Notes under the pieces: model-generated
What the model saw: the letters and a program-made list of their open reading frames with translations, nothing else
What the model was told of the DNA's origin: nothing
Database searches by the model: none
Program-made: the position numbers and the translations under genes
Part shown: positions 36,411 to 56,637 of the stretch, piece after piece
Layout: each line of letters opens with the position of its first letter
Numbering within the stretch: the first letter of the stretch is position 1
From: Bacteroidaceae bacterium
GTDB lineage: Bacteria > Bacteroidota > Bacteroidia > Bacteroidales > Bacteroidaceae
Assembly: GCA_017650045.1 (NCBI GenBank)
Contig: JAGCFP010000034.1
Coordinates: 1-58,336 of the forward strand
Length of the DNA stretch: 58,336 nt
Direction of reading: 5' to 3'

Positions 36411-36540
36411 TGCGCACAGAAAAATTTGCGCGTGTGCGTAGAAACAAAATTTTCTGTGCATAGCAGCAAATTCTCTCTAGTTAGGAAAATATTTTTTCTT
36501 AGTTAGGAAAATAATTTTCTGCAGTTGCGAAATAAAGATT
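36411..36540. repeat. Degenerate 22-bp tandem repeat with phased A/T tracts, copy 1
   Basis: About five to six units of 22 bp. The clearest are 36479-36500 (AGTTAGGAAAATATTTTTTC and 2 more) and 36501-36522 (AGTTAGGAAAATAATTTTCT and 2 more). More diverged units lie before (36435-36456, 36457-36478) and after (from 36523). The array ends in the copA promoter. The same 22-bp unit occurs at 49184-49249. Confidence 0.65.
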
Positions 36541-36565: not shown

Positions 36566-39049
36566 ATGGCAGCAGACCAGAACATCATCAAGGAGAGTTT
36601 TCCCGTCATAGGCATGAGTTGTGCCTCTTGTGCGACAAGGGTGGATAAGACCCTCAACCGTCAGGTAGGCGTGAAGCAGGCGACAGTGAACTATGCTTCT
36701 GCAATGGCGATGGTGGAGTACGACTGCCAAATTACCAATCCTGCCACACTGCAGAAAGCTGTACAAGAGGCTGGATACGACCTCTACATCGCTCAAGAGG
36801 ATGCAGTAGATGAAGTGGAGAAAGCACAGCATGAGCATTATGAATCTCTGAAGCGCAGAGCCATTTGGGCATTGGGCATCTCACTAGTACTCATGCTGAT
36901 AAGCATGCTCTTCATGCACCATCCTGCTGCTAAGTATGCGATGTGGCTGCTTGCTACCCCTGTGGTTTTTTGGTTGGGAAGGGATTTCTTCCGCAATGCC
37001 TGGAAGCAACTGAAGCATGGGGCAGCCAACATGGATACACTGGTGGCACTAAGTACAGGCATCGCCTATCTGTTCAGCGTTTTCAACCTCTTCTTTCCAG
37101 AGGTCTGGACCAGTCGTGGCATCACGCCACACGTCTATTTCGAGAGTGCTGCCATGATCATTGGCTTCATCTTGCTGGGCAGAGCATTGGAGGCGCGGGC
37201 GAAAAGTCAGACGAACACAGCCATTAAGAAACTGATGGGACTGCAACCTCAGACAGTCACTGTTTTGAAGGACGGACAGACGAAGGTAATTCCCATCGCT
37301 GAGATCGTAAAGGGTGACAGCATCATCGTAAAACCTGGCGAGCGTATTGCTGTAGATGGCACGGTGACTGAGGGCAGCTCTTATGTGGATGAAAGCATGC
37401 TGAGTGGAGAGCCTGTGCCTGTAGGCAAAACACCTGGTTCCAAGGTCTTTGCAGGTACCATCAATCAGAAAGGAGTTTTCAGATTCCATGCAGAACGTGT
37501 GGGCAGCGACACGCTCTTGGCACACATCATCTATCTGGTGCAAGAGGCGCAAGGTAGCAAGGCACCCATTCAGAAGTTGGTAGATAAGGTAGCAGCCATC
37601 TTCGTGCCAGTCATCATCGGCATTGCCGTGTTGGCATTTGTGGCTTGGCTGTTACTCGATCCTTCCAATGGCTTCACACACGGCTTGCTGGCACTAGTCA
37701 CAGTGCTTATCATTGCCTGTCCTTGTGCCCTTGGATTGGCTACGCCCACTGCCCTTATGGTGGGCATTGGACGAGGAGCAGAGCAAGCTATCCTTATCAA
37801 AGACGCGGAGAGTCTGGAAACAGCTCGTAACATTGATACCATCATACTCGACAAGACTGGTACCATCACAGAGGGAAAGCCTGTGGTGAATGCCTTGATA
37901 TGGGAGGATTCCATCTCTGATACTGCGGACTATCAAGCTATCTTCTGCTCATTGGAAAAGCTTTCTGAGCATCCATTGGCAGAGGCGATCGTGCAGCACT
38001 TAGGCGCTACTGAAATGGAGATTACTTCTTTTGAGAGTCTTACAGGTATGGGAGTGAAGGGCATTCATAAAGGCATTACTTATCTGACTGGGAATCAGCG
38101 CCTCATGGAACGCTATAACTTAGCTGCTTCTGATTTACTGAAAGCCAAAGCATCACAAATGGCAACTGAGGCTCAAACAGTGATCTGGTTTGCTTCTGAG
38201 CATCAAGTACTGGCTGTGGCTGGCATCTCCGACCCCATTAAGCCTACCTCACAGGCAGCCATTGAGACTTTACAGCAACAAGGCATCAGTGTCTATTTGC
38301 TGACAGGCGATAATGAAGCCACTGCACAGAGCATTGCCACAAAACTAGGCTTGCAACACTACAAGGCGAAGGTGCTTCCACAAGAAAAAGCAGCCATTAT
38401 CCAAGCTTTGCAGCAAGAAGGACATGTAGTAGCGATGGTGGGCGATGGCATCAACGACAGTGCAGCCTTGGCACAAGCCGACCTCAGTATCGCCATGGGT
38501 AGTGGAAGCGACATTGCTATGGAAGTGGCAGGAATGACCATCATATCGAGCGACTTGCAAAAGATTCCTGCAGCCTTGACGCTCTCGAAGCTCACAGTGC
38601 GCACCATCCGTCAGAACTTATTTTGGGCATTTATCTACAACCTCATCAGTGTGCCCATTGCAGCAGGTGTGCTCTATCCCATCAATGGCTTCCTACTCAA
38701 TCCTATGATAGGAGGAGCAGCGATGGCACTGAGCAGTGTGAGTGTAGTGAGCAACAGTCTGCTACTAAAACGCAAACGCATCGAACCAGAAAGAGATACA
38801 GAACCAATCATAGAACCTCTAAAAGAAGAAAAGAGAATGAAAAAGACATTTAAAGTCAGTGGCATGATGTGCCAGAACTGTCGCAAGCATGTGGAGAAGG
38901 CACTCAACAGCATCGAGGGCGTAAGTGCCATTGTCACGCTGGATCCACCTGTGGCAGAAGTGGAGTTCACAGATGCAGAGCTCACCCTTGAAGAACTGCA
39001 AAACGTTGTAACAGAGGAAGCTGGCGACTACACATTGAGTGAGGCATGA
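36566..39049 (+). CDS. copA: Cu+/Ag+-transporting P1B-type ATPase with N- and C-terminal HMA domains
   Basis: 827-residue inner-membrane copper exporter. N-terminal heavy-metal domain with GMSCASC (C19, C22). CPC in IACPCALGLATPT (C385, C387), phosphorylation site DKTGT (D429) and GDGINDSAAL are present. YN(x4)P in FIYNLISVP and MxxSS in AMALSSVSV are the membrane signature for Cu+ specificity. Unusually, a 70-residue HMA domain is fused at the C-terminus (758-827, GMMCQNC with C769 and C772). It begins with its own Met after a purine-rich AAAGAAGAAAAGAGA and is the size of free CopZ. The stop overlaps the ATG of the next HAD gene (ATGA). Confidence 0.94.
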   Translation: MAADQNIIKESFPVIGMSCASCATRVDKTLNRQVGVKQATVNYASAMAMVEYDCQITNPATLQKAVQEAGYDLYIAQEDAVDEVEKAQHEHYESLKRRAIWALGISLVLMLISMLFMHHPAAKYAMWLLATPVVFWLGRDFFRNAWKQLKHGAANMDTLVALSTGIAYLFSVFNLFFPEVWTSRGITPHVYFESAAMIIGFILLGRALEARAKSQTNTAIKKLMGLQPQTVTVLKDGQTKVIPIAEIVKGDSIIVKPGERIAVDGTVTEGSSYVDESMLSGEPVPVGKTPGSKVFAGTINQKGVFRFHAERVGSDTLLAHIIYLVQEAQGSKAPIQKLVDKVAAIFVPVIIGIAVLAFVAWLLLDPSNGFTHGLLALVTVLIIACPCALGLATPTALMVGIGRGAEQAILIKDAESLETARNIDTIILDKTGTITEGKPVVNALIWEDSISDTADYQAIFCSLEKLSEHPLAEAIVQHLGATEMEITSFESLTGMGVKGIHKGITYLTGNQRLMERYNLAASDLLKAKASQMATEAQTVIWFASEHQVLAVAGISDPIKPTSQAAIETLQQQGISVYLLTGDNEATAQSIATKLGLQHYKAKVLPQEKAAIIQALQQEGHVVAMVGDGINDSAALAQADLSIAMGSGSDIAMEVAGMTIISSDLQKIPAALTLSKLTVRTIRQNLFWAFIYNLISVPIAAGVLYPINGFLLNPMIGGAAMALSSVSVVSNSLLLKRKRIEPERDTEPIIEPLKEEKRMKKTFKVSGMMCQNCRKHVEKALNSIEGVSAIVTLDPPVAEVEFTDAELTLEELQNVVTEEAGDYTLSEA

Positions 39050-39690
39050 GCACATTCATACTCGATTTCGATGGCACCATCGCTGACACCCAGTCGTTCA
39101 TCGTGCATGTGATGCAGCTCACCTTGAGCAGGATGGGTGCTGAGCCTCGCACTACAGCACAGTGTGCAGCCACCATTGGCTTGCCCCTCACGCAGTGCTT
39201 CGAGGCACTTCTTGGTATCCAGACTGCTGAGGCGCAGCCCTATGCAGATACTTATCGTCGCATCTTCGACGAGGAGCGCAAGCCTGGGGCTGTAAAAACC
39301 TTTCCACATGTCATCGAAACCATCAAAGCACTGCATGAAGCTGGGCATCAAGTGACCATTGCCACCAGTCGTGGTCGTGAATCACTGCAGCATTTTCTCG
39401 ATGATTTCGAACTGAATCCCTACATCTCTTTCACTGTCTGCGTAGGTGAGACAGAACATGCCAAGCCTCATCCTGAGCCTGTGCTGAAGACGTTGGAATA
39501 CCTTCATGAGCAGCCTGAGAATGCATTGGTAGTTGGCGACACCACCTTCGACATTGCCATGGGACAAGGCGCCAATTGCCTCACCTGTGCAGTGACCTAT
39601 GGCAACCAAACTCGCACCCAACTGGAACCACAGCACCCCACCTATCTTATAGATGACTTCGCTGAGTTGCTGACGCTTGGCTCAGAGTAA
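39046..39690 (+). CDS. HAD hydrolase, phosphoglycolate-phosphatase-like
   Basis: 214 residues. Motif I is FILDFDGTIADTQS with both Asp residues, motif II TIATSRG, motif III KPHPEPVL, and motif IV VVGDTTFDIAMGQGA. An alpha-helical cap lies between motifs I and II. The Gph/PgmB-like group is clear; the substrate is not. It overlaps the copper ATPase gene by 4 bp and is therefore co-expressed with it. A functional link to copper is not evident. It ends only 2 bp from the stop of the convergent exporter permease. Confidence 0.87.
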   Translation: MSTFILDFDGTIADTQSFIVHVMQLTLSRMGAEPRTTAQCAATIGLPLTQCFEALLGIQTAEAQPYADTYRRIFDEERKPGAVKTFPHVIETIKALHEAGHQVTIATSRGRESLQHFLDDFELNPYISFTVCVGETEHAKPHPEPVLKTLEYLHEQPENALVVGDTTFDIAMGQGANCLTCAVTYGNQTRTQLEPQHPTYLIDDFAELLTLGSE

Positions 39691-39692
39691 TA

Positions 39693-40790
39693 TCAACTGT
39701 TCTTCTTATAACTCCATACGGCCCAAATGCCCATGACAGTCCCAAAACAGCAGAGAGCCAGCACTTGATGGGCGACACTACTGAAACCACCTCCACGCAC
39801 AAAGACAGTACGCACAGCATCAATGAAGTAGTGCATGGGATTGACATAAGTGGTGAGGTAAGCCCAATGAGGCATGGAACGTGTAGGGGTGAAGAGTCCG
39901 CTGAGCAACATGAGACACACCACAAAGAACCACATTACGAAGATGGCTTGCTGCATGGTGTCTGAATAGTTGGACACCAAGAGGCCGAAACTGCTGAAGA
40001 AGATGGCTAAGAGCATGGCCAAGGCATAGACAAGCCAAAGGGGACCTTGGCAGGTGATGCCATAGACCAGCCACGACAGCAAGAGGCAGACCGTAATGAT
40101 GAAAAGTGCGATAAGCCAATAGGGAATGAGCTTAGCTAGGATGAACGACCATTTGGATACTGGCGTCACATTTATTTGCTCGATGGTGCCTGCCTCTTTC
40201 TCACTTACGATGTTGAGCGCAGGAAGGAAACCTGTCATCAACATCATGACGATAGCAAAGAGGGCAGGAATCATGAAAAGTTTGTAGTTCTGCTGCTTGT
40301 TGTAGAGGTTGAGTGTGGAAAGCTTAGAGTTCAGAGTTAAGGATTTAGAGTTTAGTGCAGCACGCGGAGAGGTACTGGTGATGATCTGTGTCAGATAAGC
40401 ACTACCCATAGCTCCCTTGGTACCATTGACAGCATTGGCAGCTACCAAGATTTGTGGAGACTCACCACGCACCAAGTCGCGCTCATACTGAGGAGGAATG
40501 ACCATAATCACATCTGCATCACCTCGCTCCACCTCTGCCAATGCTTCATCGTATGACGCCTTCTGTCCCCCAAACAAGAAATAATTGGATGCCTCTACCT
40601 GGTGAACCAGTTGTTGGGAAGCTGTAGAGCGGTCACCATCCACCACATCCACCACGATGTTCTTTACTTCCATACTCACCACCCACGGCATGACGCACAT
40701 GATGACAATGGGGAACATCAAGATCAGACGGGGCAGGAAGCTGTTTCGCCGAATCTGCAGGAACTCCTTTTGTATTAAGAACTTTATCAT
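39693..40790 (-). CDS. ABC-2 type exporter permease (YbhR/YhhJ-like), with heptad insert
   Basis: 365 residues. One membrane segment near the N-terminus (about 20-40), a periplasmic domain (about 45-165), then five C-terminal membrane segments. VSEKEAGTIEQINVTPVSKW (about 203-222) and the PTRSMPHWAYLTTYVNPMHY region are typical of ABC-2 drug-exporter permeases. Just before the second membrane segment (residues about 146-161) is a low-complexity stretch LNSKSLTLNSKLSTLN with a 7-residue period, encoded by TTAGAGT-type heptamers. The sister permease has a similar insert at the same place. It is the last gene of the five-gene exporter operon. Confidence 0.92.
   Translation of the reverse strand: MIKFLIQKEFLQIRRNSFLPRLILMFPIVIMCVMPWVVSMEVKNIVVDVVDGDRSTASQQLVHQVEASNYFLFGGQKASYDEALAEVERGDADVIMVIPPQYERDLVRGESPQILVAANAVNGTKGAMGSAYLTQIITSTSPRAALNSKSLTLNSKLSTLNLYNKQQNYKLFMIPALFAIVMMLMTGFLPALNIVSEKEAGTIEQINVTPVSKWSFILAKLIPYWLIALFIITVCLLLSWLVYGITCQGPLWLVYALAMLLAIFFSSFGLLVSNYSDTMQQAIFVMWFFVVCLMLLSGLFTPTRSMPHWAYLTTYVNPMHYFIDAVRTVFVRGGGFSSVAHQVLALCCFGTVMGIWAVWSYKKNS
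40308..40358. repeat. TTAGAGT heptamer array inside the permease gene
   Basis: On the plus strand 40324-40358 reads TTAGAGT, TCAGAGT, TAAGGAT, TTAGAGT, TTAGTGC, with a diverged extension to 40308. The gene runs on the minus strand and the array is translated as a 7-residue repeat. A perfect array would give stop codons in this orientation; substitutions remove them. Confidence 0.75.
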
Positions 40791-40814
40791 GATTGAGAAT
40801 TAAAATTGAGAATT
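40791..40814. repeat. Imperfect GAGAATT heptamers at the junction of the two permease genes
   Basis: GATTGAG, AATTAAA, then ATTGAGAATT on the plus strand. They fill the 22-bp gap, begin directly before the ATG (minus) of the downstream permease, and reach into the TAA stop of the upstream permease. Confidence 0.6.
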
Positions 40815-41916
40815 ACTCCAGGCGTTTCTTGAAAGTCTTTAAGGCAATAGCCAGCAAAAGGACTGTCATGCCTATAAGGATCAGCATTTCACGCATCACA
40901 TGTTCCACACCCACGCCCATAATCATTAGCTTGCGCATGGCAGCGATGTAGTAGCGAGGGGGGATGACAGCAGAGACATATTGCAAGATCTTAGGCATGC
41001 TTTCGATGGGGAAGAGCATGCCAGAGAGCATCACAATGGGCATCAGCAACACCATGGCCGACATGAGCAGAGCCACCAACTGCGTCTGGGCAACATTGCT
41101 TATTAGCAGACCAAGCGACAGCGCCAGCAAGATATAAATGCCCGATAACACAAAAATCCAGAACAGCGAACCTGCCAATGGTACCTCCAGCACAAAGTAG
41201 GACATGAGCAAGATCACAATCAGTATCACAAATGCCAGCACCAAGTAAGGTACAGCCTTGGCGATAATCACCATCAGTGGCTTCACAGGGCTGACCAGAA
41301 GTACTTCCATAGTGCCACGCTCTTTCTCCCTGACGATGGAGATAGAGGTCATCATGGCACAGATAAGCATCAGCAGCATACCCATAATGGCAGGCACGAA
41401 GTTGTATGCACTGCGCATCTGTGGGTTATAGAGCATCTTGGTATTAACCGTAGGTAATTGAGAATTGAGGATAGAGGTTTGAGAATTACCTTCGGAAGCT
41501 AATAATTCTTGCTGGATGATGGCCTGCGCATAGACAGCCCACTGCTGCGACATGTTGGGGTCTGCGGCATCCACGATGAGCTGCACTCCTGAATGAGAAG
41601 AAGCGAAGTTTTTTCCAAACACGATAGCCATATCTGCTTTCTGACTGCGGATGATGCGTTCTGCTTCTGCTGTCGTAGGAGCTGTCTGCACCAAGTTGAA
41701 ATACTCCGAAGCTCCCAGACGCTCGATGATGCGCTGCGTCTGATGGTCCTGTGACGTCGTGACCACCACTGTCCGCACATTCTGCACATCGGTAGAGATG
41801 GCAAAGCCGAACAGCAGCATCAGCACCACTGGCATGCCGAAGAGTATCAGCATCGTGCGTTTGTCACGCAAGATGTGCTTCGCTTCCTTCTGTACAAATG
41901 ACCAAAACTCTTTCAT
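40813..41916 (-). CDS. ABC-2 type exporter permease (YbhS-like), with heptad insert
   Basis: 367 residues with one N-terminal membrane segment (about 21-41), a periplasmic domain (about 45-165) and five C-terminal membrane segments. SIVREKERGTMEVLLVSPVKP (about 190-210) and PRYYIAAMRKLMI near the end are family signatures. Residues about 143-157 read EGNSQTSILNSQLPTVN, encoded by an AATTGAG-type heptamer array (41456-41490). It sits just before the second membrane segment, at the same place as the insert in the partner permease. Forms the export channel with it. Confidence 0.93.
   Translation of the reverse strand: MKEFWSFVQKEAKHILRDKRTMLILFGMPVVLMLLFGFAISTDVQNVRTVVVTTSQDHQTQRIIERLGASEYFNLVQTAPTTAEAERIIRSQKADMAIVFGKNFASSHSGVQLIVDAADPNMSQQWAVYAQAIIQQELLASEGNSQTSILNSQLPTVNTKMLYNPQMRSAYNFVPAIMGMLLMLICAMMTSISIVREKERGTMEVLLVSPVKPLMVIIAKAVPYLVLAFVILIVILLMSYFVLEVPLAGSLFWIFVLSGIYILLALSLGLLISNVAQTQLVALLMSAMVLLMPIVMLSGMLFPIESMPKILQYVSAVIPPRYYIAAMRKLMIMGVGVEHVMREMLILIGMTVLLLAIALKTFKKRLE
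41456..41490. repeat. AATTGAG heptamer array inside the permease gene
   Basis: Five units on the plus strand: AATTGAG, AATTGAG, GATAGAG, GTTTGAG, AATTACC. Translated on the minus strand as NSQTSILNSQ. In this orientation the array is free of stop codons in all frames. Confidence 0.75.
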
Positions 41917-41937
41917 CCTCTAAAAGCTCTAAACCAA

Positions 41938-43443
41938 TCAATCACTGCTGCGTGTTGCTTGCCTTGCTAGGTAAGTAAACACATGATCCATATCGGGTTG
42001 TCCGTAGTTTCGTTTCAGTTCTTCAGGACTACCTATCGCCTTAATCTTACCATCCACCATAATGGAGATGCGGTCGCAATACTCTGCCTCATCCATGTAG
42101 TGGGTAGTGACAAAGACCGTGATACCCCTGCCTGCTGCTTCGTAGATCAGTTCCCAGAACTGACGACGGGTGGCGGGATCTACACCTCCTGTAGGTTCAT
42201 CGAGAAACACTACCCCAGGCTCATGGAAGATACTGACGCTGAATGCCAACTTCTGTTTCCATCCCAGAGGAAGCGACTTCACGATGTCATTTCCATGCGC
42301 AGTAAACTTCAGGCGTTCCAACAACTCGTCTGTCTTACGGGCTATCTCCCCCTCCTTTATGCCATAGATGCCTGCAAACAGACGGATATTCTCACGTACC
42401 GTTAGATCCTCATAGAGTGAGAAGCGCTGACTCATATAGCCTATGTGCTTCTTGATTTCCTCATACTGCGTACAGATATCGTAACCCACCACTGTACCAG
42501 TCCCACTTGTAGGCTGGTTCAGTCCTGTGAGCATGTGCATAGCTGTGGTCTTGCCTGCGCCATTGGCTCCTAAGAAACCGAATATCTCCCCACGTTTCAC
42601 GGAGAAGGAAATATCATCTACTGCGTGGAAGTTGCCAAAGGCCTTAACCAGGTGCTCCACCTCAATAACATTGTCTGAACATTGAGAATTGAGAATTGGG
42701 AATTGAGAATTATCTGCTGGAAATTGGGTATCAGCCTTTGTCTTTCTTTCTATCCCTGGAGGATTGAAAACATCCTTGAAGCGCTCCAAAATCTCTTCTG
42801 GTTCTCCAATGCCCCTAAGGCACCCTTGATCTAAGAATGCTACCCGCTCACAACGGCGCACCTCATCTAAATATGGAGTGGCAGCCACGATGGTGATGCC
42901 TTGTTCCTTTAGTGTACCCAGCATCTCCCAGAACTCCTTGCGTGAAACAGGATCGACACCTGTGGTAGGTTCATCAAGGAAAAGCACGCTGGGTTTATGT
43001 ACCAGGGCACAACTCAATGCCAGTTTCTGCTTCATTCCTCCAGAAAGGGCACCAGCCCGCCTGTCCTTGAAACGCTCTATCTGCGAATAGATGGCCTTGA
43101 TGGTATCATATCCTTCTTCTACTGTGGTGCCAAAGAGCGTGGCAAAGAAGGTCAGGTTTTCCTCCACAGTGAGGTCCAGATAGAGCGAGAATTTACCAGG
43201 CATATACCCTACCCGCTTTCTGATTTCTGTCATCTGCCCTACAGTGTCGTAGCCATCAACCAAAGCCTGTCCTTCATCTGGGAGCAGTAAGGTGGCCAGA
43301 ACGCGGAACAGCGTAGTCTTACCTGCGCCGTCAGGACCAATCAAACCAAAGACCTCGCCCTGTTCTACAGAGAAAGAAACGTCTTGTAAGGCCTGCACCT
43401 TCCCGTAACTCTTTGAGATATGTTGAACCTCAATGGAGTTCAT
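41938..43443 (-). CDS. ABC transporter ATPase with two fused nucleotide-binding domains (YbhF-like)
   Basis: 501 residues. NBD1 (about 1-225) has Walker A GPDGAGKTTL, signature LSGGMKQKL and Walker B LFLDEPTTGVDP. NBD2 (about 255-490) has Walker A GANGAGKTTA and Walker B VFLDEPTGGVDP, but its signature reads LPLGWKQKL, a known variant in this family. The linker between the domains contains DNSQFPILNSQ, encoded by a heptamer array at 42682-42716. It powers the two permeases encoded downstream. Its ATG is formed within a junction heptamer array that also gives the stop of the adaptor gene. Confidence 0.95.
   Translation of the reverse strand: MNSIEVQHISKSYGKVQALQDVSFSVEQGEVFGLIGPDGAGKTTLFRVLATLLLPDEGQALVDGYDTVGQMTEIRKRVGYMPGKFSLYLDLTVEENLTFFATLFGTTVEEGYDTIKAIYSQIERFKDRRAGALSGGMKQKLALSCALVHKPSVLFLDEPTTGVDPVSRKEFWEMLGTLKEQGITIVAATPYLDEVRRCERVAFLDQGCLRGIGEPEEILERFKDVFNPPGIERKTKADTQFPADNSQFPILNSQCSDNVIEVEHLVKAFGNFHAVDDISFSVKRGEIFGFLGANGAGKTTAMHMLTGLNQPTSGTGTVVGYDICTQYEEIKKHIGYMSQRFSLYEDLTVRENIRLFAGIYGIKEGEIARKTDELLERLKFTAHGNDIVKSLPLGWKQKLAFSVSIFHEPGVVFLDEPTGGVDPATRRQFWELIYEAAGRGITVFVTTHYMDEAEYCDRISIMVDGKIKAIGSPEELKRNYGQPDMDHVFTYLARQATRSSD
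42682..42716. repeat. TTGAGAA heptamer array inside the ATPase gene (inter-domain linker)
   Basis: Units on the plus strand: TTGAGAA, TTGAGAA, TTGGGAA, TTGAGAA, then diverged TTATCTG. On the minus strand it encodes NSQFPILNSQ between the two nucleotide-binding domains. Confidence 0.8.
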
Positions 43444-43471
43444 AATTATGAATTATGAATTTTCAATGTTC
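43441..43471. repeat. AATTATG heptamers at the adaptor-ATPase gene junction
   Basis: Units AATTATG, AATTATG, AATTTTC, AATGTTC (43444-43471, plus strand). On the minus strand they encode the last residues (KIHNS) and the TAA stop of the adaptor, and the next bases give the ATG of the ATPase 2 bp later. Confidence 0.75.
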
Positions 43472-44360
43472 CGTACATCCCTATTTTGATGAACCCATCG
43501 TTCTCTACTGCCACCTTGACAGCATATACCAAATCAGCACGTTCATCGTTGGTAAGGATAGTCTTGGGAGTAAACTCAGAGGTATCGGAAATCCACGTAA
43601 CCTTTCCCTCGTAGGTCTTCCCCTTACCATCGCCATAGTCGGTCATGACAGTTACTGATTGCCCCACTTTCACCTGCTCCAGTTGGGAAGAGGTGACGTA
43701 GGCCCTAAGATACATGTGGCGAATGTCTGCCACCTTAAACAGAGGTTTGCCCACCACGGCAAACTCTCCTGCCTCTGTATATTTCTCCAGCACAGTGCCT
43801 TGGATGGGCGACGAGATGTAGCACTTACTCAGTTGGTCAAGCACCTGTGCCCGTTGTATGTCTGCAGCACTCATTTGGCTGTTCAGACTGCGGGTACTGT
43901 TGCCCAAGTTGGAAAGCTGTGCATCCAGTTGCTTCTTCAGCACCTGCACTTGGCTACGCACGTCGTCCAACTGCTTCTGATTGGCAGAGCCATCCTTTAC
44001 CAAAGCCTCAAAACGCCGTTGCTCCATCTCTGCCTTGTCCAACTGCTCTCGCAAGCTGGCCACCTGCTTCTGCACATCAGGACGCTGGTTGGCAATGCTC
44101 TCTTTCGTTGCTCCCAAAAGCCGTGCCTGAAGGGCAAGTTGCACAGTATCTATCAGTCCTACCTGTTGGTACGCCTCCACCTCCATGCCCTCTTGCACAT
44201 TGAAAGAAAGCAGTCGTCCATTCTGCTCTGCAGAAATGGTAATCTCCGTAGCCTCAAAAGTACCTGTGGCATCATAGGCTTTATTATCTCCACTGCATGC
44301 CGATAATAAAGCAATGCAAAGATTGAAAAATGCAAAGATGCAAATATTATTCCTTCTCAT
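43446..44360 (-). CDS. HlyD-family periplasmic adaptor lipoprotein of the ABC exporter (YbhG-like)
   Basis: 304 residues. Lipoprotein signal with lipobox LLSAC (Cys22). Biotinyl-lipoyl halves flank a coiled-coil hairpin: GRLLSFNVQEGMEVEAYQQVGLID (first half, about 48-72), a long helical hairpin (about 80-165), then ISSPIQGTVLEKYTEAGEFAVVGKPLF (second half). The beta-barrel region has VTWISDTSEFTPKTI. It links the inner-membrane ABC complex to the TolC-type channel encoded just upstream. The C-terminus is encoded by junction heptamers. Confidence 0.92.
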   Translation of the reverse strand: MRRNNICIFAFFNLCIALLSACSGDNKAYDATGTFEATEITISAEQNGRLLSFNVQEGMEVEAYQQVGLIDTVQLALQARLLGATKESIANQRPDVQKQVASLREQLDKAEMEQRRFEALVKDGSANQKQLDDVRSQVQVLKKQLDAQLSNLGNSTRSLNSQMSAADIQRAQVLDQLSKCYISSPIQGTVLEKYTEAGEFAVVGKPLFKVADIRHMYLRAYVTSSQLEQVKVGQSVTVMTDYGDGKGKTYEGKVTWISDTSEFTPKTILTNDERADLVYAVKVAVENDGFIKIGMYGTLKIHNS

Positions 44361-44364
44361 AATC

Positions 44365-44413
44365 TCTAAACTTTAAACTCTTAATTCTAAACCCTAAACT
44401 CTAAGCTCTAATT
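44365..44413. repeat. TCTAAAC heptamer array at the TolC-adaptor gene junction
   Basis: Seven units on the plus strand: TCTAAAC, TTTAAAC, TCTTAAT, TCTAAAC, CCTAAAC, TCTAAGC, TCTAATT. The complement is the same TTAGAGT unit found inside the downstream permease gene. The array overlaps the stop codon of the TolC-like gene (44408-44410) and fills the 47-bp gap. Confidence 0.8.
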
Positions 44414-45652
44414 ATTATATAGGTGTTTCATTCGATATATCTCCTGCAAGAGCTGAATTTCGTGGAGCGCCTGTGTCTGACGTGCCTCACTCACAGCATT
44501 GATCTCACGCAGCATCTCGTTCACAGTCTCTATGCCGTTCTCTACACGACGCTGAGCCCTATCGCGAATGCCCTCGCGCAAGGTCACGATCTCTGCATCC
44601 TGTGCCAACTGTGCCTTCAGGTCCTGAATCACGCCATCGGAACTTTCGCTCTGCAACTGCGTGTTGAAGAGGAAGGTTTCCCTTGTGACTCCGATCTGCC
44701 TCCGTTGCAACTCCAATTTCTGAAGGTCTGTCTTACGGGTATAAAGCGCTCCCAGATTCCAGCTAAGAGAGATACCTCCCAGCAGCAAACCGCTGTTCAC
44801 AAGATCTGTCACCTTGCTATGCAACATGCCAGTGGCAAAAGCCCCCAGTTTGGGGCGAAGCTGAGCATCGAGCATTTTCTTCTGAGCATCGAGCAACTGG
44901 CTTTGTGCTGTGTACAGATTCAATTCTGGACGATAGTTGTTCCTGTCCAACTCACTTCCAGAAGTAGCAGGCTTCACCAGTGTAGTCTCCTCACCTAATT
45001 TCTGATTGATGAACGTGCCAAGCATCAGCAGGTAGGTGCGCTTTAAGGTACGCAAACTTCCCACACGCTGGTTGGCCTTGATCTGCTCCACACGCACAGC
45101 ATCCACATCGCTCTGGTTGGCCAGTCCCCCACGCATCAGTCCTTCCACCGTCTGAAGACTCAGTTTCAGGTCATCTTCAAGCAACAAAGTCTGCTTCAGT
45201 TGCTCTTCTATGGAGAGTACCCCGAAGTAGAGCTGGTCAATACGCTGGCGCACATCGTACATCGACACCTCGACCTGTCCTTTCTCTACCTCAGCCTCTG
45301 CCTTTGCCAATCCCCTACGGGCAGCAATCGCTCCGCCATCGTAGATGCTCTGGTTCACTGTGACACTGGCACTGAGCAGGTGGTTCTCCATCCCTCCAGC
45401 GACCTGACCCAACTGTGCAGGCATGTCCAGAATATCCGTGAAGGCATAGGCACCAGCAGACAAGCCTATCTGAGGCAGATAGCCCTTCGAAGCATTGGAG
45501 AGGTTGAACTCACGACTCTGCTCCACCAGTCCGTATTGCTTAATCAGCGGATAGTTGGCCTCAGCACGCTCATAGCATTCCTCCAGCGTCAGTTGCGCCT
45601 TGCCAAGCAGAGCCCACCCCATCAGCACAAAAAGTAAGCCTATTCGTTTCAT
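44408..45652 (-). CDS. TolC-family outer-membrane efflux channel of the ABC exporter
   Basis: 414 residues from the ATG at 45652; the signal peptide is MKRIGLLFVLMGWALLGKAQ. Two tandem helical hairpin halves of the outer-membrane efflux protein fold are seen (about 22-210 and 225-414, with QLTLEECYERAEANYPLIKQY, VNQSIYDGGAIAARRGLAKAE and ISLSWNLGALYTRKTDLQKL). First gene of the five-gene exporter operon TolC-HlyD-ATPase-permease-permease, divergent from the AraC regulator. A TACCTTTG -7 box lies about 28 bp upstream. The stop codon is part of a heptamer array. Confidence 0.9.
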   Translation of the reverse strand: MKRIGLLFVLMGWALLGKAQLTLEECYERAEANYPLIKQYGLVEQSREFNLSNASKGYLPQIGLSAGAYAFTDILDMPAQLGQVAGGMENHLLSASVTVNQSIYDGGAIAARRGLAKAEAEVEKGQVEVSMYDVRQRIDQLYFGVLSIEEQLKQTLLLEDDLKLSLQTVEGLMRGGLANQSDVDAVRVEQIKANQRVGSLRTLKRTYLLMLGTFINQKLGEETTLVKPATSGSELDRNNYRPELNLYTAQSQLLDAQKKMLDAQLRPKLGAFATGMLHSKVTDLVNSGLLLGGISLSWNLGALYTRKTDLQKLELQRRQIGVTRETFLFNTQLQSESSDGVIQDLKAQLAQDAEIVTLREGIRDRAQRRVENGIETVNEMLREINAVSEARQTQALHEIQLLQEIYRMKHLYNN

Positions 45653-45679
45653 ATCGTAGTTAATTATCATTTTGTAGGC

Positions 45680-45790
45680 AAAGGTATAATATTTCTTCCA
45701 TATCCCTATTACCTATAGCAACAAAGATATGTCCTTTTTGTACAAAACGCCCTTTATTTTATTATTTTTGAGCATAAAACATTATCTTTG
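45680..45790. promoter_or_regulatory. Divergent control region between the ABC exporter and its AraC regulator
   Basis: TACCTTTG on the minus strand (45687-45680) serves the exporter. A second TATCTTTG on the same strand lies at 45729-45722. TATCTTTG on the plus strand (45783-45790) serves the regulator. Between them is a perfect 12-bp palindrome TTTTGTACAAAA (45736-45747), a candidate operator. Confidence 0.55.
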
Positions 45791-45813
45791 TAGCAGAAAC
45801 AACAAAAGAAGCC

Positions 45814-46713
45814 ATGACACAGAAATCTATAGAAGAACTTACCTTCGAGAAAATGCGCGAAATCCTATCAGGTGGGGATAGCATGCCCAATGATGCCATT
45901 TTCCTCGGAGATGACTTTGCCTTGCTGAGTGGTGAACCTTCACATTTCAAGCGCCTGCTGCCAGTGGACACCCCTTTTCGTATAGACGACATCCGCATTG
46001 GTCTCATTAAGCAAGGAGAGCTGAAGAATGAGGTCAACCTGCAAGCCCACCACCTGCATAAAAACACCATCGCCTTCATGGGAAAGGGAAGCATCATCGA
46101 ACTGCGTGAAGCTTCAGCCGATCTGTCGATTATTGGCGTTGCCTTCCAGGACCACTATTTAGGCTCCATCAACAATCTGCCTGTTCCCCTCAATGGCGAG
46201 GTACGCGACCTCTTCATAGAAGATGCTACAGATGAAGAGGTAATCATGTTGGAGCAACTTCTGCAAACCACACGCAAACTGGTGCATCAGCCACGCATCA
46301 GCAAAGAGGCTGTAGGTGGTATGGTGAAAGCCATCGTGCATTATGTGGCAGGGCTGTGCAGGGAAAGACAGATGGGCAGCAAACAGGCCAAGGATAACGA
46401 CCGTGACATCTTCGAACGTTTCATCCGTTTAGTCAACCTATATTGTCGCACAGAACATCAGATTGCATTCTATGCGGAGAAACTTTTCCTTAGTCCCCGT
46501 TATGTCAGTCAGGTGGTGAAACAGGTAAGCGGCCTCAGCGCCAAGGACTGGATTGACCGTGCCCTTATCACAGAAGCCAAGGTGATGCTGAAGCACACTC
46601 CCATGCGAGCCGTGCAGATCTCCTACGAACTGAACTTCCCTAATCCCAGTTTCTTCAGCAAGTTCTTCAAGCAGCATACGGGCATCACCCCAGAGGAGTA
46701 TCGTAAAGGATGA
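45814..46713 (+). CDS. AraC-family transcriptional regulator
   Basis: 299 residues. The N-terminal region (about 1-165) looks like a cupin-type sensor domain (DTPFRIDDIRIGLIKQGEL, FMGKGSIIELREAS). The C-terminal region (about 195-299) holds two helix-turn-helix motifs, with AEKLFLSPRYVSQVVKQVSG and MRAVQISYELNFPNPSFFSKFFKQHTGITPEEYRK, the usual AraC end. It is divergent from the five-gene ABC exporter and probably regulates it in response to an exported compound. That regulatory link is inference from position. Confidence 0.9.
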   Translation: MTQKSIEELTFEKMREILSGGDSMPNDAIFLGDDFALLSGEPSHFKRLLPVDTPFRIDDIRIGLIKQGELKNEVNLQAHHLHKNTIAFMGKGSIIELREASADLSIIGVAFQDHYLGSINNLPVPLNGEVRDLFIEDATDEEVIMLEQLLQTTRKLVHQPRISKEAVGGMVKAIVHYVAGLCRERQMGSKQAKDNDRDIFERFIRLVNLYCRTEHQIAFYAEKLFLSPRYVSQVVKQVSGLSAKDWIDRALITEAKVMLKHTPMRAVQISYELNFPNPSFFSKFFKQHTGITPEEYRKG

Positions 46714-46754
46714 AATTTTGCCAAAAACTGATGTGATAATCGAGAATTTCTTTG

Positions 46755-46762
46755 TATGTTTG
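46755..46762 (+). promoter_or_regulatory. -7 box of pyrH
   Basis: TATGTTTG, a match to TAnnTTTG, 28 bp before the pyrH ATG. Confidence 0.55.
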
Positions 46763-46790
46763 CAAAAGCAATAAATAAAAACAGGTAATT

Positions 46791-47501
46791 ATGGCATTAT
46801 TCAACAGAATCTTACTGAAGCTCAGTGGCGAGAGCCTGATGGGCGAAAAACAATATGGCATTGACGAGAAGCGACTGGGCGAATATGCTGCCCAGATCAA
46901 AGAGATACACGATATGGGCGTGCAGATTGGCATCGTGATTGGTGGTGGCAACATCTTCCGTGGACTGAGTGGTTCACAGAAGGGCTTCGACCGTGTGAAG
47001 GGCGACCAGATGGGTATGTTGGCCACAGTGATCAACAGTCTGGCACTGAGCTCTGCCCTCACCGCTGCTGGTGTGAAAAACCGTGTGCTGACAGCCATCC
47101 GCATGGAGCCTATAGGTGAGTTCTACAACAAGTGGCGCGCCATAGAGTGCCTGGAGGCTGGCGAGGTGGTTATCTTCTCTGCAGGTACTGGCAGTCCTTA
47201 CTTCACCACTGACACGGGCAGCAGCTTGCGTGGCATCGAGATAGAAGCTGATGTGATGCTGAAAGGCACACGCGTGGATGGCGTCTATACGGCCGACCCA
47301 GAGAAAGATCCTACTGCCACGAAGTTCTCTGAAATCACCTACGATGAGGTTTTGGCACGAAATTTGAAGGTAATGGATCTGTCGGCCATCTGCATGTGCA
47401 AGGACAACGGACTGCCAATCATCGTGTTCAACATGGATGTGGTGGGCAACCTGAAGAAAGTGCTGAGTGGCGAAGACATCGGGACTGTGGTACACCCTTG
47501 A
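46791..47501 (+). CDS. pyrH: Uridylate kinase
   Basis: Phosphorylates UMP to UDP. 236 residues, the bacterial hexameric amino-acid-kinase-fold type. ILLKLSGESLMG (about 5-16) and IGIVIGGGNIFRG (about 45-57) bind nucleotide; GTGSPYFTTDTGSSLRGIEIEADVMLKGT (about 134-162) is the signature region, followed by VDGVYTADPEKDP. It begins the pyrH-frr-rsgA run, a common grouping of UMP kinase and ribosome recycling factor. Confidence 0.97.
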   Translation: MALFNRILLKLSGESLMGEKQYGIDEKRLGEYAAQIKEIHDMGVQIGIVIGGGNIFRGLSGSQKGFDRVKGDQMGMLATVINSLALSSALTAAGVKNRVLTAIRMEPIGEFYNKWRAIECLEAGEVVIFSAGTGSPYFTTDTGSSLRGIEIEADVMLKGTRVDGVYTADPEKDPTATKFSEITYDEVLARNLKVMDLSAICMCKDNGLPIIVFNMDVVGNLKKVLSGEDIGTVVHP

Positions 47502-47505
47502 TGCA

Positions 47506-47537
47506 AGATTAAAAGATTAAAAGATTGAAAAATTAAA
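47506..47537 (+). repeat. AGATTAAA octamer array between pyrH and frr
   Basis: Four 8-bp units: AGATTAAA, AGATTAAA, AGATTGAA, AAATTAAA. It fills most of the 47-bp gap and is an 8-bp cousin of the heptamer junction arrays. Confidence 0.65.
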
Positions 47538-47548
47538 ATAAGACTATT

Positions 47549-48109
47549 ATGAAAGACGTAAAGACTATCGTGAATGAAGTGTCTGAGCAGATGGATATGG
47601 CTATCCTATATCTGGAAGATACATTGACTCATATCCGTGCTGGCAAGGCTGATGTACGCTTGCTTGACGGTATTCGTGTAGATAATTACGGCGCTATGGT
47701 TCCTATCAACAACTGTGCTGCTGTGACTACCCCAGATGCACGCACTATCTCCATCAAGCCTTGGGACAAGAACATGTTCCGTGTGATAGAGAAGGCCATC
47801 ATCGACTCTAACTTGGGCATCACTCCAGAGAACAATGGCGAAATCATCCGCTTAGGCATCCCTCCATTGACAGAGGAGCGTCGTAAGCAACTGAGCAAGC
47901 AGTGCAAGGGTGAAGGTGAGAATGCCAAAGTAAGCATCCGCAATGCCCGTCGCGATGGCATTGATGAGCTGAAGAAAGCCGAGAAAGAAGGCATGTCCGA
48001 GGATTTCCGCAAAGACGGTGAAGAAGAGCTCAAGAAGGTGCACGACAAGTACATCAAGAAGGTAGAAGAGCTCTTGGCCAAGAAGGACAAGGAAATCATG
48101 ACGGTGTAA
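47549..48109 (+). CDS. frr: Ribosome recycling factor
   Basis: Splits post-termination ribosomes together with EF-G. 186 residues, standard length. ILYLEDTLTHIRAGKADVRLLDGIRVDNYGA (about 19-49), TISIKPWDKNMFRVIEKAI (about 72-90) and IRLGIPPLTEERRKQLSKQCK are typical, as is the three-helix C-terminal part. It is preceded by an octamer array and followed by an opposed pair of heptamer arrays before rsgA. Confidence 0.97.
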   Translation: MKDVKTIVNEVSEQMDMAILYLEDTLTHIRAGKADVRLLDGIRVDNYGAMVPINNCAAVTTPDARTISIKPWDKNMFRVIEKAIIDSNLGITPENNGEIIRLGIPPLTEERRKQLSKQCKGEGENAKVSIRNARRDGIDELKKAEKEGMSEDFRKDGEEELKKVHDKYIKKVEELLAKKDKEIMTV

Positions 48110-48113
48110 ATAA

Positions 48114-48205
48114 ATTGAACATTGAGGATTGAACATTGAGCATTATTACCATCCGGAAGGGATAGGCGCAGCTTAATGTTCAATGTTCAATGTTCAATGT
48201 TCAAT
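48114..48205 (+). repeat. Two opposed heptamer arrays forming a 31-bp hairpin between frr and rsgA
   Basis: The left arm (48114-48144) has units ATTGAAC, ATTGAGG, ATTGAAC, ATTGAGC plus ATT. The right arm (48175-48205) has four AATGTTC units plus AAT. The arms pair over 31 bp with one mismatch and two G-U pairs; the loop is 30 nt (48145-48174). The right arm ends 5 nt before the rsgA ATG, so the hairpin would sit over the ribosome-binding region. Confidence 0.85.
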
Positions 48206-48210
48206 AACAG

Positions 48211-49149
48211 ATGCGTGGTTTAGTCGTCAAGAACACGGGTAGTTGGTACTTAGTCAAGACCGACGAAGGGGATGCTGTGGAATGCAAGATCAAGGGAAAC
48301 TTCCGCTTGAAAGGCATTCGCAGCACTAACCCTGTGGCGGTAGGCGATTATGTACAGATTATCCGTAACCCCGAAGGCACAGCTTTTATCAGTGAGATAG
48401 AAGATCGCAAGAACTACATCATCCGCAAGGCATCCAACCTCTCAAAGCAGAGCCATATCATAGCGGCCAATCTGGACCAGTCCATGCTCATAGCCACAAT
48501 AAAGCATCCTGAGACCAGCACCATCTTCATCGACCGCTTTCTGGCTACTGCCGAAGCCTATCGTGTGCCCGTTATCCTATTATTTAATAAGATAGATCTG
48601 CTGGATGCTGAGGAGCATCACTACTTAGAGTCGCTGATACACCTCTACACCACCATTGGTTACCAATGCATGGAACTTTCTGCCTTGAAGGCAGAGGGGA
48701 TAGAGCAGGTGAAGGAAGCACTGAAGGGCAAGGTAACACTCTTCTCTGGCAATTCAGGCGTAGGTAAATCCACCCTCATCAATGCCCTGCTACCCCACTT
48801 AGACATTAAAGCCCGCACAGGGGTCATCTCCACTGCCCACGACAAGGGTATGCACACCACCACCTTCTCTGAAATGTACGAGGTACCTGGCGGAGGTTAC
48901 ATCATCGATACTCCAGGCATCAAAGGTTTTGGTACCTTCGACATGGAGGTGGAGGAGATAGGCCATTACTTCCCAGAGATTTTCCAATTCTCCCATCAGT
49001 GCAAGTATGGCAATTGCACCCATCGCACAGAGCCAGGCTGTGCCGTGCGTGAAGCTGTGGAGCAACATTATATCAGTCAGTCGCGCTACACCTCTTACCT
49101 CAATATGCTGGAAGATAAAGAGGAGAGCAAGTATCGACAAGGATATTGA
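48211..49149 (+). CDS. rsgA: Ribosome small-subunit maturation GTPase RsgA
   Basis: Late 30S assembly GTPase. 312 residues, with the circularly permuted G-motif order: G4 NKID (126-129), G1 GNSGVGKST (180-188), G3 DTPG (233-236). An N-terminal OB-fold (about 1-70) precedes the GTPase domain. The C-terminal zinc knuckle is C264, C269, H271 and C277 in [14 protein letters not shown]. Third gene of the pyrH-frr-rsgA run, but separated from frr by a strong hairpin that may tune its expression. Confidence 0.96.
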
Positions 49150-49183
49150 TGCGAAGCTCATAGGTGTGGGCATAAATGCTCAC

Positions 49184-49249
49184 AGTTAGAGCAAACTATT
49201 TTTCTAGTTAGAGAAATATTTTTTCCTAACTAGGAAAATAATATTTCAC
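49184..49249. repeat. 22-bp tandem repeat with phased A/T tracts, copy 2
   Basis: Three exact 22-bp units: 49184-49205 (AGTTAGAGCAAACTATTTTT and 2 more), 49206-49227 (AGTTAGAGAAATATTTTTTC and 2 more), 49228-49249 (AACTAGGAAAATAATATTTC and 2 more). CTAGTTAG (49205-49212) and CTAACTAG (49226-49233) also form an inverted repeat. Same family as 36411-36540. Confidence 0.75.
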
Positions 49250-49550
49250 TTCTATGTGCCGATTTTACACCTCACACTTCACAAACAGGCAATAAGCACA
49301 TATTAATCATTGGATAATTGGTGTGAAGAGTTGCATTTGACTCTTCACCACTCTTCACAGTATTCTCCTCTTTATTGACTCTGATAATTATAATGTGTGA
49401 AGTGTGGTGAAGTGTTTGCGAGCACTCTTCACGCTTATAAGAATCAAGCATTCAGCCGATTAGATGCCATCCGTGAAGTGTGAAGGGGAAAAGAGATACA
49501 TGGAGACTAAATTATGCAAAATTACATCATGCAGAATTGTATAATAATGA
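49250..49550. repeat. Intergenic region rich in GTGAAGTGT/ACACTTCAC-type decamers
   Basis: About 300 bp without a gene between rsgA and the glucokinase terminator. A decamer related to GTGAAG(A/T)GT occurs about seven times in both orientations: near 49273, 49323, 49340, 49350, 49395, 49406, 49423 and 49473. GTGAAGAGT (49323-49331) and ACTCTTCAC (49340-49348) form a perfect 9-bp hairpin with an 8-nt loop, and 49406-49432 forms a second, imperfect one. Confidence 0.55.
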
Positions 49551-49553
49551 AAA

Positions 49554-49581
49554 AATCCCCAAAGCAGGAGCCTTGGGGATT
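49554..49581 (-). terminator. Terminator of the glucokinase gene
   Basis: 9-bp arms AATCCCCAA (49554-49562) and TTGGGGATT (49573-49581) with a 10-nt loop. On the minus strand it is followed by TTTT-rich sequence; on the plus strand by CGTTTTTC, so it may act both ways. Confidence 0.8.
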
Positions 49582-49605
49582 CGTTTTTCATAGAGAACCT
49601 ACGAC

Positions 49606-50577
49606 TTAGATCTCCCAACCAAGAGCAGATGCACCCAGAACGGCAGCATCGGCATCCTTCAGCTCAGACATCAGCAGTTTGGTCTTGCCCTTGAAGATAG
49701 GCATCACGTTCTCATCGATGGTGCGCTGGATAGGCTCGAAGAGCAGGTCGCCAGCATGTGCCAGACCACCAAACAGCACGATAGCTTCTGGGCTGGTGAA
49801 GGCGATGAAGTCAGCGAAGGCCTCACCCAGAATCTTACCAGTGAATTCGAAGATGTCCTTAGCAATCTTGTCGCCAGCCTTGGCAGCATTGAACACGTCG
49901 AGAGAGGTAATTTCCTCTGCAGGAATGTCACGCAGCTTACTTGGCTCTGTGCTTGAGGTCAGGATCTCACGAGCAGAGCGAGCCACACCTGTAGCAGAAG
50001 CATAAGCCTCCAGACAGCCCTTGCGACCGCAACCGCAGAGACGACCGTTCTCGCGACGGATAGTCACGTGACCCAGCTCACCAGCGAAGCCATCGTGGCC
50101 ATAAACCAACTGGCCGTTGCAAACCACACCACTACCTACACCTGTACCCAGGGTAATCATGATGAAGTCCTTCATACCACGTGCAGCACCATAAGTCATT
50201 TCACCGATAGCAGCAGCATTGGCATCGTTGGTCAGTGCGCAAGGCACGCCCATCTTCTCAGAAATCAGGTTAGCCAATGGAATAACGCCCTTCCAAGGGA
50301 GGTTTGGTGCGAACTCAATCGTACCAGTATAGAAGTTGCCGTTAGGAGCACCTACACCGATACCCTTGATCTTACCTTCAGCATCGTTAGCCTTAATCAG
50401 CGCCTTCATGCCAGAAGTGAGGGCTTCTACATAGTCCTCTATCTTCTCATACTTCTGCGTCTTGATTTTATCTACTGCGAGCACGGTTCCACGTGCATCT
50501 ACGATACCGAACACTGAGTTTGTTCCACCAATGTCAATACCCATTACATAGGGCTTCTCTACATTTGTTGTTACCAT
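49606..50577 (-). CDS. ROK-family glucokinase
   Basis: Cytoplasmic ATP-dependent sugar kinase, most likely glucose. 323 residues. The phosphate loop is VMGIDIGGTNSVFGIVD (about 11-27). The catalytic Asp is D118 in CALTNDANAAAIGE. The ROK sugar/zinc region is E167, H170 and C181, C183, C188 in GELGHVTIRRENGRLCGCGRKGC (read in two parts). VLFGGLAHAGDL near the C-terminus is also conserved. It stands alone with its own terminator. No upstream TAnnTTTG is convincing. A mannokinase or other hexokinase role is possible. Confidence 0.9.
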   Translation of the reverse strand: MVTTNVEKPYVMGIDIGGTNSVFGIVDARGTVLAVDKIKTQKYEKIEDYVEALTSGMKALIKANDAEGKIKGIGVGAPNGNFYTGTIEFAPNLPWKGVIPLANLISEKMGVPCALTNDANAAAIGEMTYGAARGMKDFIMITLGTGVGSGVVCNGQLVYGHDGFAGELGHVTIRRENGRLCGCGRKGCLEAYASATGVARSAREILTSSTEPSKLRDIPAEEITSLDVFNAAKAGDKIAKDIFEFTGKILGEAFADFIAFTSPEAIVLFGGLAHAGDLLFEPIQRTIDENVMPIFKGKTKLLMSELKDADAAVLGASALGWEI

Positions 50578-50703
50578 GATATTAAATTGTATTAAGTTAA
50601 ATAGTTATTCTTATGCTGTTACAAATTACTTAAAGTTTTTTGACTTTTCAAAATTTTACATGCTAAAAAACGTATAAATGCAGAAAATAAAATTTTTTAT
50701 ACA

Positions 50704-50711
50704 TAAGTTTG
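50704..50711 (+). promoter_or_regulatory. -7 box of the MacB-type exporter operon
   Basis: TAAGTTTG, an exact TAnnTTTG match, about 53 bp before the first ATG of the operon. The upstream 100 bp is AT-rich with A and T runs; no clear operator. Confidence 0.55.
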
Positions 50712-50764
50712 CAACAAATCGCAAACTCTATGCGTCTAATGAGTAAATGTGAACAGACCTTTTT

Positions 50765-51481: not shown

Positions 51482-51487
51482 ACGGCT

Positions 51488-52741: not shown

Positions 52742-52743
52742 TA

Positions 52744-52806
52744 ACAATTGAGAATTGAGAATTGAGAATTGACAATTGAGAATTGAGAATTGAGAATTGA
52801 GAATTA
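52744..52806 (+). repeat. Nine-unit AGAATTG heptamer array between the two permease genes
   Basis: Units of 7 bp: ACAATTG, AGAATTG three times, ACAATTG, AGAATTG four times minus the last base change (AGAATTA). It begins 3 bp after the stop of the first permease and ends 14 bp before the ATG of the second. The repetition of ACAATTG after four units suggests duplication of a block of four. Longest array in the window. Confidence 0.9.
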
Positions 52807-52820
52807 ATAATTCCAAAAGG

Positions 52821-56555: not shown

Positions 56556-56637
56556 AAAATTAAAAAATTAAAAGATAAAATAATTAAAAAAGGCTCTTTC
56601 CTAACAACCAAAGTTCACCTTATAATATTATAATGCT
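56556..56637. other. A-rich intergenic stretch between convergent genes
   Basis: Loose AAATTAAA/AAGATAAA repeats (56559-56590), then AAAAAGGCTCTTTCC and an AT-rich end. A weak member of the junction-repeat class. No gene. Confidence 0.4.

Follow-up and report, generated by a model that had tools for sequence, protein, structure and literature searches.

Heptamer repeats typical of gene junctions occur inside the coding sequence of an ABC-2 exporter and of unrelated enzymes in a Bacteroidaceae bacterium

Introduction

Heptamer repeats are familiar from cyanobacteria, where they are known as short tandemly repeated repetitive (STRR) sequences. Here we describe 7-bp tandem arrays inside three genes of an ABC-2 exporter operon of a Bacteroidaceae bacterium (assembly GCA_017650045.1, contig JAGCFP010000034.1; “the window” refers to this whole 58,336-bp stretch), together with similar arrays elsewhere in the same genome and in related genomes.

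Several repeat systems described previously offer a comparison (here and below as presented in excerpts of the cited papers). Rickettsia palindromic elements (RPE) are small dispersed repeats found between genes and also in frame within conserved proteins, which they leave unbroken (PMC2229807, PMC3767692); in some orthologs, RPE of other groups lie close to the same position, and hotspots are one possible reading of this (PMC3767692). TAACTGA heptamers occur in Beggiatoaceae, cyanobacteria and some Bacteroidetes, mostly between genes (MacGregor, 2015, PMC4679880). Their arrays have stops in all frames on one strand and encode the 7-residue peptide LSVISYQ on the other, 11 open reading frames (ORFs) with arrays in the open orientation are said to carry them mainly at the protein periphery, and two cyanobacterial strains differ by indels in steps of 7 nt (PMC4679880). 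BrickBuilt, a miniature inverted-repeat transposable element (MITE) of Porphyromonas gingivalis, holds tandem repeats within an inverted-repeat element (PMC4596501), and among long simple sequence repeats the heptanucleotides are the most abundant class in most repeat-rich genomes (Mrazek, 2007, via PMC4679880). In-frame protein repeats (Rickettsia, PMC2229807, PMC3767692) and strand-biased heptamers (PMC4679880) are hence already known.

In the window genome, heptamer arrays lie in the linkers of all three exporter proteins and are dispersed through the genome, their occurrence on a tree of related operons is scattered, one array differs by exactly one heptad from that of the nearest relative found, and neighboring opposed arrays nearly always follow the same order. 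We argue below that a genome-wide population of junction repeats probably leaks into coding DNA, and is kept where protein loops tolerate length and the strand is free of stops.

Results and Discussion

Heptamer arrays in three exporter genes

Tandem Repeats Finder places a heptamer array in each of three adjoining minus-strand genes: at 42681–42711 (91% matches, coding strand (AATTCTC)n, peptide NSQFPILNSQ) in a double ABC ATPase (41938–43443, 501 aa, Pfam ABC_tran twice, RbbA-like), at 41456–41487 (76% matches, NSQTSILNSQ) in ABC-2 permease 1 (40813–41916, 367 aa), and at 40324–40355 (72% matches, degenerate, TTAGAGT type, LNSKSLTLNSK) in ABC-2 permease 2 (39693–40790, 365 aa; both permeases Pfam ABC2_membrane_3). 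A first-pass annotation, made from the sequence alone, had reported period-7 arrays with these peptides in all three genes, and the ORFs do contain them; it had also placed the ATPase insert in the inter-domain linker, and the array indeed falls between the two ABC_tran domains. Its frame arithmetic is likewise correct, as (AATTCTC)3 translates to NSQFSIL with no stop and its complement reads EN*ELRI. The idea of one repeat type in all three genes stands for the ATPase and permease 1 only, the unit of permease 2 being of the TTAGAGT type and not AATTGAG.

The significance of the arrays was evaluated by comparing the lag-7 score of each gene with 1000 codon shuffles. A strict score (+1/−2) was never equalled for the ATPase or permease 1, and was equalled in 185 shuffles for permease 2, so that the permease 2 array is weak in the window itself; a softer score (+1/−1) was equalled in 0 of 1000 shuffles for all three genes. 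The degenerate permease 2 array of the window (run score 6) is clear in L094, the locus of the nearest relative found (run score 30).

YbhF/RbbA-type ABC-2 exporter operons comprise a double ATPase, two ABC-2 permeases and an HlyD-type fusion protein, and the operon of the window has this composition. Next to the ATPase and permeases, also on the minus strand, lie an HlyD-type membrane fusion gene (43446–44360, recognized at the level of Pfam families) and an ORF resembling an outer-membrane factor (44408–45670, judged by eye from its sequence). All RbbA matches fall below the equivalog cut-off of 1050 bits, which was made for one long fused protein. Five of 20 relatives (the more distant loci L076–L080) encode the two halves of the ATPase as separate ORFs, and the array-bearing linker is therefore the fusion point of the halves. 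Most of the best-matching named records come from rumen Prevotella and Bacteroidales metagenome genomes.

The window genome (G000; the window is its contig C38) is itself a metagenome-assembled draft of 2.27 Mb in 93 contigs, 76.6% complete, and an assembly artefact has to be considered on that account. We hold this to be extremely improbable, given that a separate record, L094, shows arrays with substitutions of their own at each of the three sites, and that the reading frames are intact.

A genome-wide population of junction repeats

The first-pass annotation had taken the exporter inserts for the kind of repeat that fills gene junctions, which is borne out by a search with AATTGAGAATTGAG: it occurs at 57 places (partly overlapping) in the window genome, against 0 for the reversed control, and 38 of 99 genomes in the genus contain the unit. 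In 444 kb of G000, a census counted 24 strong lag-7 arrays, 17 intergenic, 3 at ORF edges and 4 mid-gene (one of these in an ORF without Pfam family). At other lags, 5 strong arrays were found at lag 8, 8 in all at lags 6, 9, 10 and 12, and 17 at lag 14 as an echo of lag 7. A 384-kb sample of a sister genome (G123) held 66 lag-7 arrays (47 intergenic, 7 ORF-edge, 12 mid-gene) and 38 lag-8 arrays (34 intergenic), densities that are biased upwards because these stretches were mostly picked near known matches.

Within the window, the longest AATTGAG array is intergenic (52746–52812), with 28 bp less in the corresponding stretch of the sister genome. An intergenic array of the TAAACTC type, like the unit of the permease 2 insert, lies at 44360–44411, where the junction measures 93 bp in the window vs. 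441 bp of other repeats in the sister genome. A short AATTATG array (43444–43461) stands just upstream of the ATPase start, and two opposed intergenic arrays (ATTGAAC/ATTGAGC and AATGTTC) flank a short core at 48114–48205. More generally, some of the ten junctions and sites matched between G000 and the sister genome hold quite different repeat blocks. At window positions 48147–48225, length and array register equal those of sister locus L246 and the units differ (AATGTTC vs. AATTCTC/AATCCTC), as if the units had been replaced in concert.

Other repeats accompany the heptamers. A second class of arrays, with period 8, occurs in the window at 47505–47538 and 56556–56591 (AAGATTAA, AAAATTAA) and is frequent, mainly between genes, in the sister sample; similar 22-bp tandem units around AGTTAGAGAAAA/TTTTCCT are found at 36469–36526 and 49184–49228. 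All 17 intergenic lag-7 arrays of the G000 sample lie between same-strand genes, vs. 263 of 364 junctions of that kind, an excess that the sister sample lacks (34/47 vs. 198/289). No Rfam family matched window positions 38000–54000 at the gathering threshold.

Exporter linkers across relatives

The exporter was compared across 100 loci of relatives, gathered in two sets of 80 and 20, and all comparisons are between species. Orthologs covering ≤85% of the query were excluded, so that broken copies are not visible; L134 was dropped from the permease 2 linker set (misaligned), and L063 and L095, apparently one contig, are both counted in linker lengths and run counts. Linker length ranges widely for each of the three proteins, among 90 (ATPase), 100 (permease 1) and 98 (permease 2) orthologs, in line with the earlier proposal that the inserts sit in tolerant loops.

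The ATPase linker segment has 28–29 residues in most relatives and 44 in the window and L094, the window linker being 13–16 residues longer than in 15 fused orthologs. That of permease 1 is most commonly 38 residues long and has 53 in the window, and distant relatives have a similar length, 49 residues, without repeats. For permease 2, the commonest length is 37 residues (40 of 99 rows), against 42 in the window and 49 in L094. The L094 linker exceeds that of the window by exactly 7 residues, i.e., one heptad or 21 bp, and the suggestion that copy number varies accordingly holds between related species.

Strong lag-7 runs, mostly 20–60 bp long, were detected in 10 of 91 ATPase, 13 of 101 permease 1 and 9 of 98 permease 2 linkers (the window permease 2 not being among these 9), vs. 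0–2 runs at any of the remaining lags between 4 and 15, lag 14 apart. In permease 1, 46 of 55 repeat-free linkers of 14 residues carry Asn at both heptad-recurring positions. The array peptide is thus similar to the native linker, which may have served as its seed. L119 and L151 carry permease 1 arrays at the commonest linker length. The view of the permease 1 array as a pure insertion was consequently abandoned, the heptad-like Asn spacing of the repeat-free linkers ruling it out.

The same loops are also filled by palindrome-like inserts, PSPLGEGPGVR or NPLPLERENG, in the permease 1 linkers of L108, L152, L156 and L163 and in L230 (PSPLGEGPGVR itself in L108 and similar peptides in L152 and L156, by eye), which fits linker tolerance as the common factor. 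A strict form of this pattern was found in 2 of 80 loci and 22 times in the sister sample (reversed control 2), and not in the G000 sample.

Arrays in other genes

The exporter is not a particular target of the repeats: among 40 distinct AATTGAG-type exact arrays examined in G000 (at least two exact 14-mer places lay outside the examined loci and were left out of this classification), 7 are within family-recognized genes, which besides the ATPase and permease 1 are those for topoisomerase III, an FAD-oxidase/iron-sulfur protein, threonine synthase, an HI0933-like FAD enzyme and a BT4734-like protein. With these five unrelated genes, targeting specific to the exporter is ruled out.

Orthologs were compared for four of the five, and vary in length at all four array sites. 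The threonine synthase site is heptad-like in 3 of 9 orthologs (L175, L176, L181), and the Escherichia coli enzyme has 7 residues fewer at the array position. In topoisomerase III, the array is recognizable, though partly degenerate, in the 5 close orthologs out of 13. The HI0933-like enzyme has an array in 4 of 13 orthologs, L213 with the ACTCTTC-type peptide NSSFFTLHSS, and the FAD-oxidase in none of 7, L230 having the palindrome-like insert mentioned above. Loop positions, here and in the exporter, are predicted from alignments, and for threonine synthase also from a solved relative, by sequence. The sister genome has mid-gene arrays as well, with an opposed pair in a BT4734-like protein and two arrays in a large ORF with SSF and SpoIID domains (L237, L252).

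Recurrence on the tree and unit matching

The linkers were excluded from a quick tree built for 81 operons (38 of 78 inner branches well supported). In 18 operons, the window included, one or more of the three linkers contain an array (the window permease 2 was scored as an array by hand, which leaves this count unaffected), and the character “any linker array” requires at least 12 changes, gains and losses taken together. AATTCTC in permease 1 occurs in three rows (window, L126, L133), with at least 3 changes.

Could the heptads be a selected feature that tunes or phase-varies the exporter? All three subunits carry them simultaneously in the window genome, and array presence in permeases 1 and 2 is correlated (Fisher p = 3e-7, kinship ignored and the window permease 2 set by hand), but the genome-wide array load could explain this correlation, 63 of 81 operons have no linker array at the threshold used, and the same arrays stand in unrelated enzymes. 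Such a role is in our view very unlikely, and the exporter inserts are most likely neutral linker material and not a functional part.

The linker arrays do not share a single unit, as 16 different linker units were found. We compared units with genomes in a matrix of 28 chosen genomes (G000; G028; 17 with linker arrays; L104, heptad-like below threshold; 8 without), in which linker copies were counted. For the AATTCTC 14-mer, the four carriers of AATTCTC-type linkers rank first to fourth among the 28 (51, 50, 33, 17). ACTCTTC, in either orientation, is found in 6 of its 8 linker carriers, ACTCGTC in a single genome, which is its linker carrier (5 places), and ACCTGTC in four genomes with 1–2 places each, both clear carriers included. 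The unit dialect of a genome and its linker unit thus often agree, with clear exceptions.

These exceptions, and some other results, weigh against the leakage of junction repeats into coding DNA that we favor. Exact ACTCTTC copies are absent from 2 of 8 carriers (L150, L160) and present in 7 of 20 non-carriers. The ATPase linker unit of G028, GGTTCAA, occurs as an exact 14-mer at 3 places, all within the linker, so that a local birth without donor is possible there (the genome richest in GGTTCAA, with 40 places, is that of L150, whose linker has another unit). The association of linker arrays with arrays elsewhere in the locus (12/17 vs. 18/63, p = 0.004 before kinship correction) was not significant on independent pairs (about 4.2 vs. 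0.2, median p = 0.125). Finally, G000 and the sister genome also differ in length by +3 (permease 1) and −27 bp (the HI0933-like gene), and have equal lengths at three sites.

A possible, if doubtful, alternative is local slippage, by which arrays would be born in place when a chance heptamer under weak constraint is duplicated in tandem, the unit match reflecting shared base composition or polymerase bias and no copying. The private GGTTCAA of G028, the diversity of 16 units, the native Asn spacing of permease 1 (46/55), which could seed an array, and the junction that has the same length and register in two species with different units all agree with it. It does not readily account for AATTCTC at the same permease 1 site in three separate places of the tree, each in an AATTCTC-rich genome, or for ACTCGTC being found only in the genome where ACTCGTC is dispersed, and would not predict the fixed order of opposed arrays described next.

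Strand orientation and opposed pairs

Fourteen of the 16 linker units contain no stop as read, and for 13 of these the opposite strand does contain one, whereas among all heptamers without a stop on one strand 73% have none on either (the linker units are interrelated, and base composition is unmatched in this comparison). The coding strand of 13 of the 16 units includes TCA, which gives TGA on the opposite strand. The claim that all inserts lie in the tolerated orientation applies to the AATTGAG-type arrays in family-recognized G000 genes, 7 of 7 of which are oriented to read NSQFSIL, and fails as a general statement: the stop-bearing orientation is also found in coding DNA, where the units have diverged and escape the stop. 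Examples are KSEELxVKSEE-like peptides in the ATPase linkers of L116, L126, L155 and L160 and ENGKLKIEN in L249. The orientation rule is a strong tendency and not a law.

Opposed neighboring arrays (≤250 bp apart) run G-rich then C-rich in 28 of 29 pairs (13/14 in G000, 10/10 in the sister genome, 5/5 in 79 other loci), the exception being a GC-rich pair of another kind. Some of these pairs are orthologous between G000 and the sister genome. This order agrees with a MITE-like element, with array, core and inverted array forming a small mobile unit of which the coding inserts are whole or half copies left behind. Opposed pairs within coding DNA (the HI0933-like gene in two genomes, L237, L146) and orthologous junctions that may hold quite different repeat blocks speak in the same sense. 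Yet 8 of 37 neighboring pairs overall, and 4 of 9 in other loci, run in the same direction, single arrays also occur, and the short core motifs are either few or, in one of the two samples, no commoner than controls. As a firm family, core modules had to be rejected, since CATCCGGA was found 18 times vs. 4 for the reversed control in the G000 sample but 8 vs. 18 in the sister sample; four longer core motifs have 1–4 copies each vs. 0 in the control, and no common palindromic consensus was found for the opposed pairs. We entertain a mobile element only tentatively, as a rather unlikely source.

It is tempting to speculate that the junction repeats have two coding faces and are selected because they stop translation in both directions, with the linkers as the open face caught in coding DNA and each genome homogenizing its own unit. 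A G-rich strand of at least 3 units gives TGA in every frame and the C-rich strand is open in every frame, so that with opposed arrays in the observed order translation from either side would meet an all-frame stop first. At tandem junctions, intergenic arrays show no clear orientation bias (C-rich vs. G-rich on the strand of the genes, 10 vs. 7 and 18 vs. 16, opposed pairs adding equally to both sides), which speaks against a role in stopping translation, and we consider this speculation improbable.

A probable route from junction to protein loop

The explanation we favor as probable, that junction repeats leak into coding DNA, can be pictured as follows. Most heptamer arrays would reside in gene junctions, with a rapid turnover there and some of them paired in inverted orientation about a short core, and occasionally one would become established in coding DNA. 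It would usually stem from another array of the same genome, perhaps copied by template switching, transposition or recombination and then altered by slippage. Such an array would survive solely in a loop or linker of free length, in frame and with stop-free units, which the C-rich strand can supply, most of its units being open in all three frames. Once established, it could gain or lose units, by 21 bp (one heptad) where whole units must keep the frame.

Our observations agree with a leaky border separating tolerant protein loops from the fast repeats of intergenic regions. In a large group of gut bacteria, and for core enzymes and transporters alike, they connect rapidly changing repeats between genes with the growth of protein loops, and the differences in unit and copy number between related species provide a natural series for how non-coding repeats become protein. 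Coding heptamers also call for caution with alignments and gene calls in these genomes.

Comparison with known systems

Among the matches listed in a literature search, with most subscription journals outside it, we found no earlier report of these coding heptamers, nor of recurrence in fixed linkers, genome-specific units or a fixed pair order, which is not proof of absence. The accounts of TAACTGA heptamers (MacGregor, 2015), BrickBuilt and RPE came nearest among these matches. BrickBuilt has a 23-nt unit and is always intergenic (PMC4596501), whereas the heptamers described here are also coding. Among long simple sequence repeats, those with multiples of three are described as likeliest in coding regions (PMC4679880), and the coding arrays here have period 7.

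RPE and TAACTGA heptamers are the close analogues of the coding heptamers. The likeness to RPE lies in dispersal, and in occurrence both between genes and in conserved genes with the frame kept. The difference is that RPE are palindromes of ~100–150 bp in defined families, and the coding inserts, which are short 7-bp tandem arrays with a unit that varies by genome, display no palindromic consensus of that size with terminal inverted repeats. With TAACTGA, the present arrays share the heptamer period, stops on one strand and a period-7 peptide on the other; they differ in being from other genera, and TAACTGA is not among the 16 linker units. In the excerpts of the TAACTGA account (PMC4679880) we found no matching of linker units to genomes, fixed-linker recurrence or fixed order of opposed arrays.

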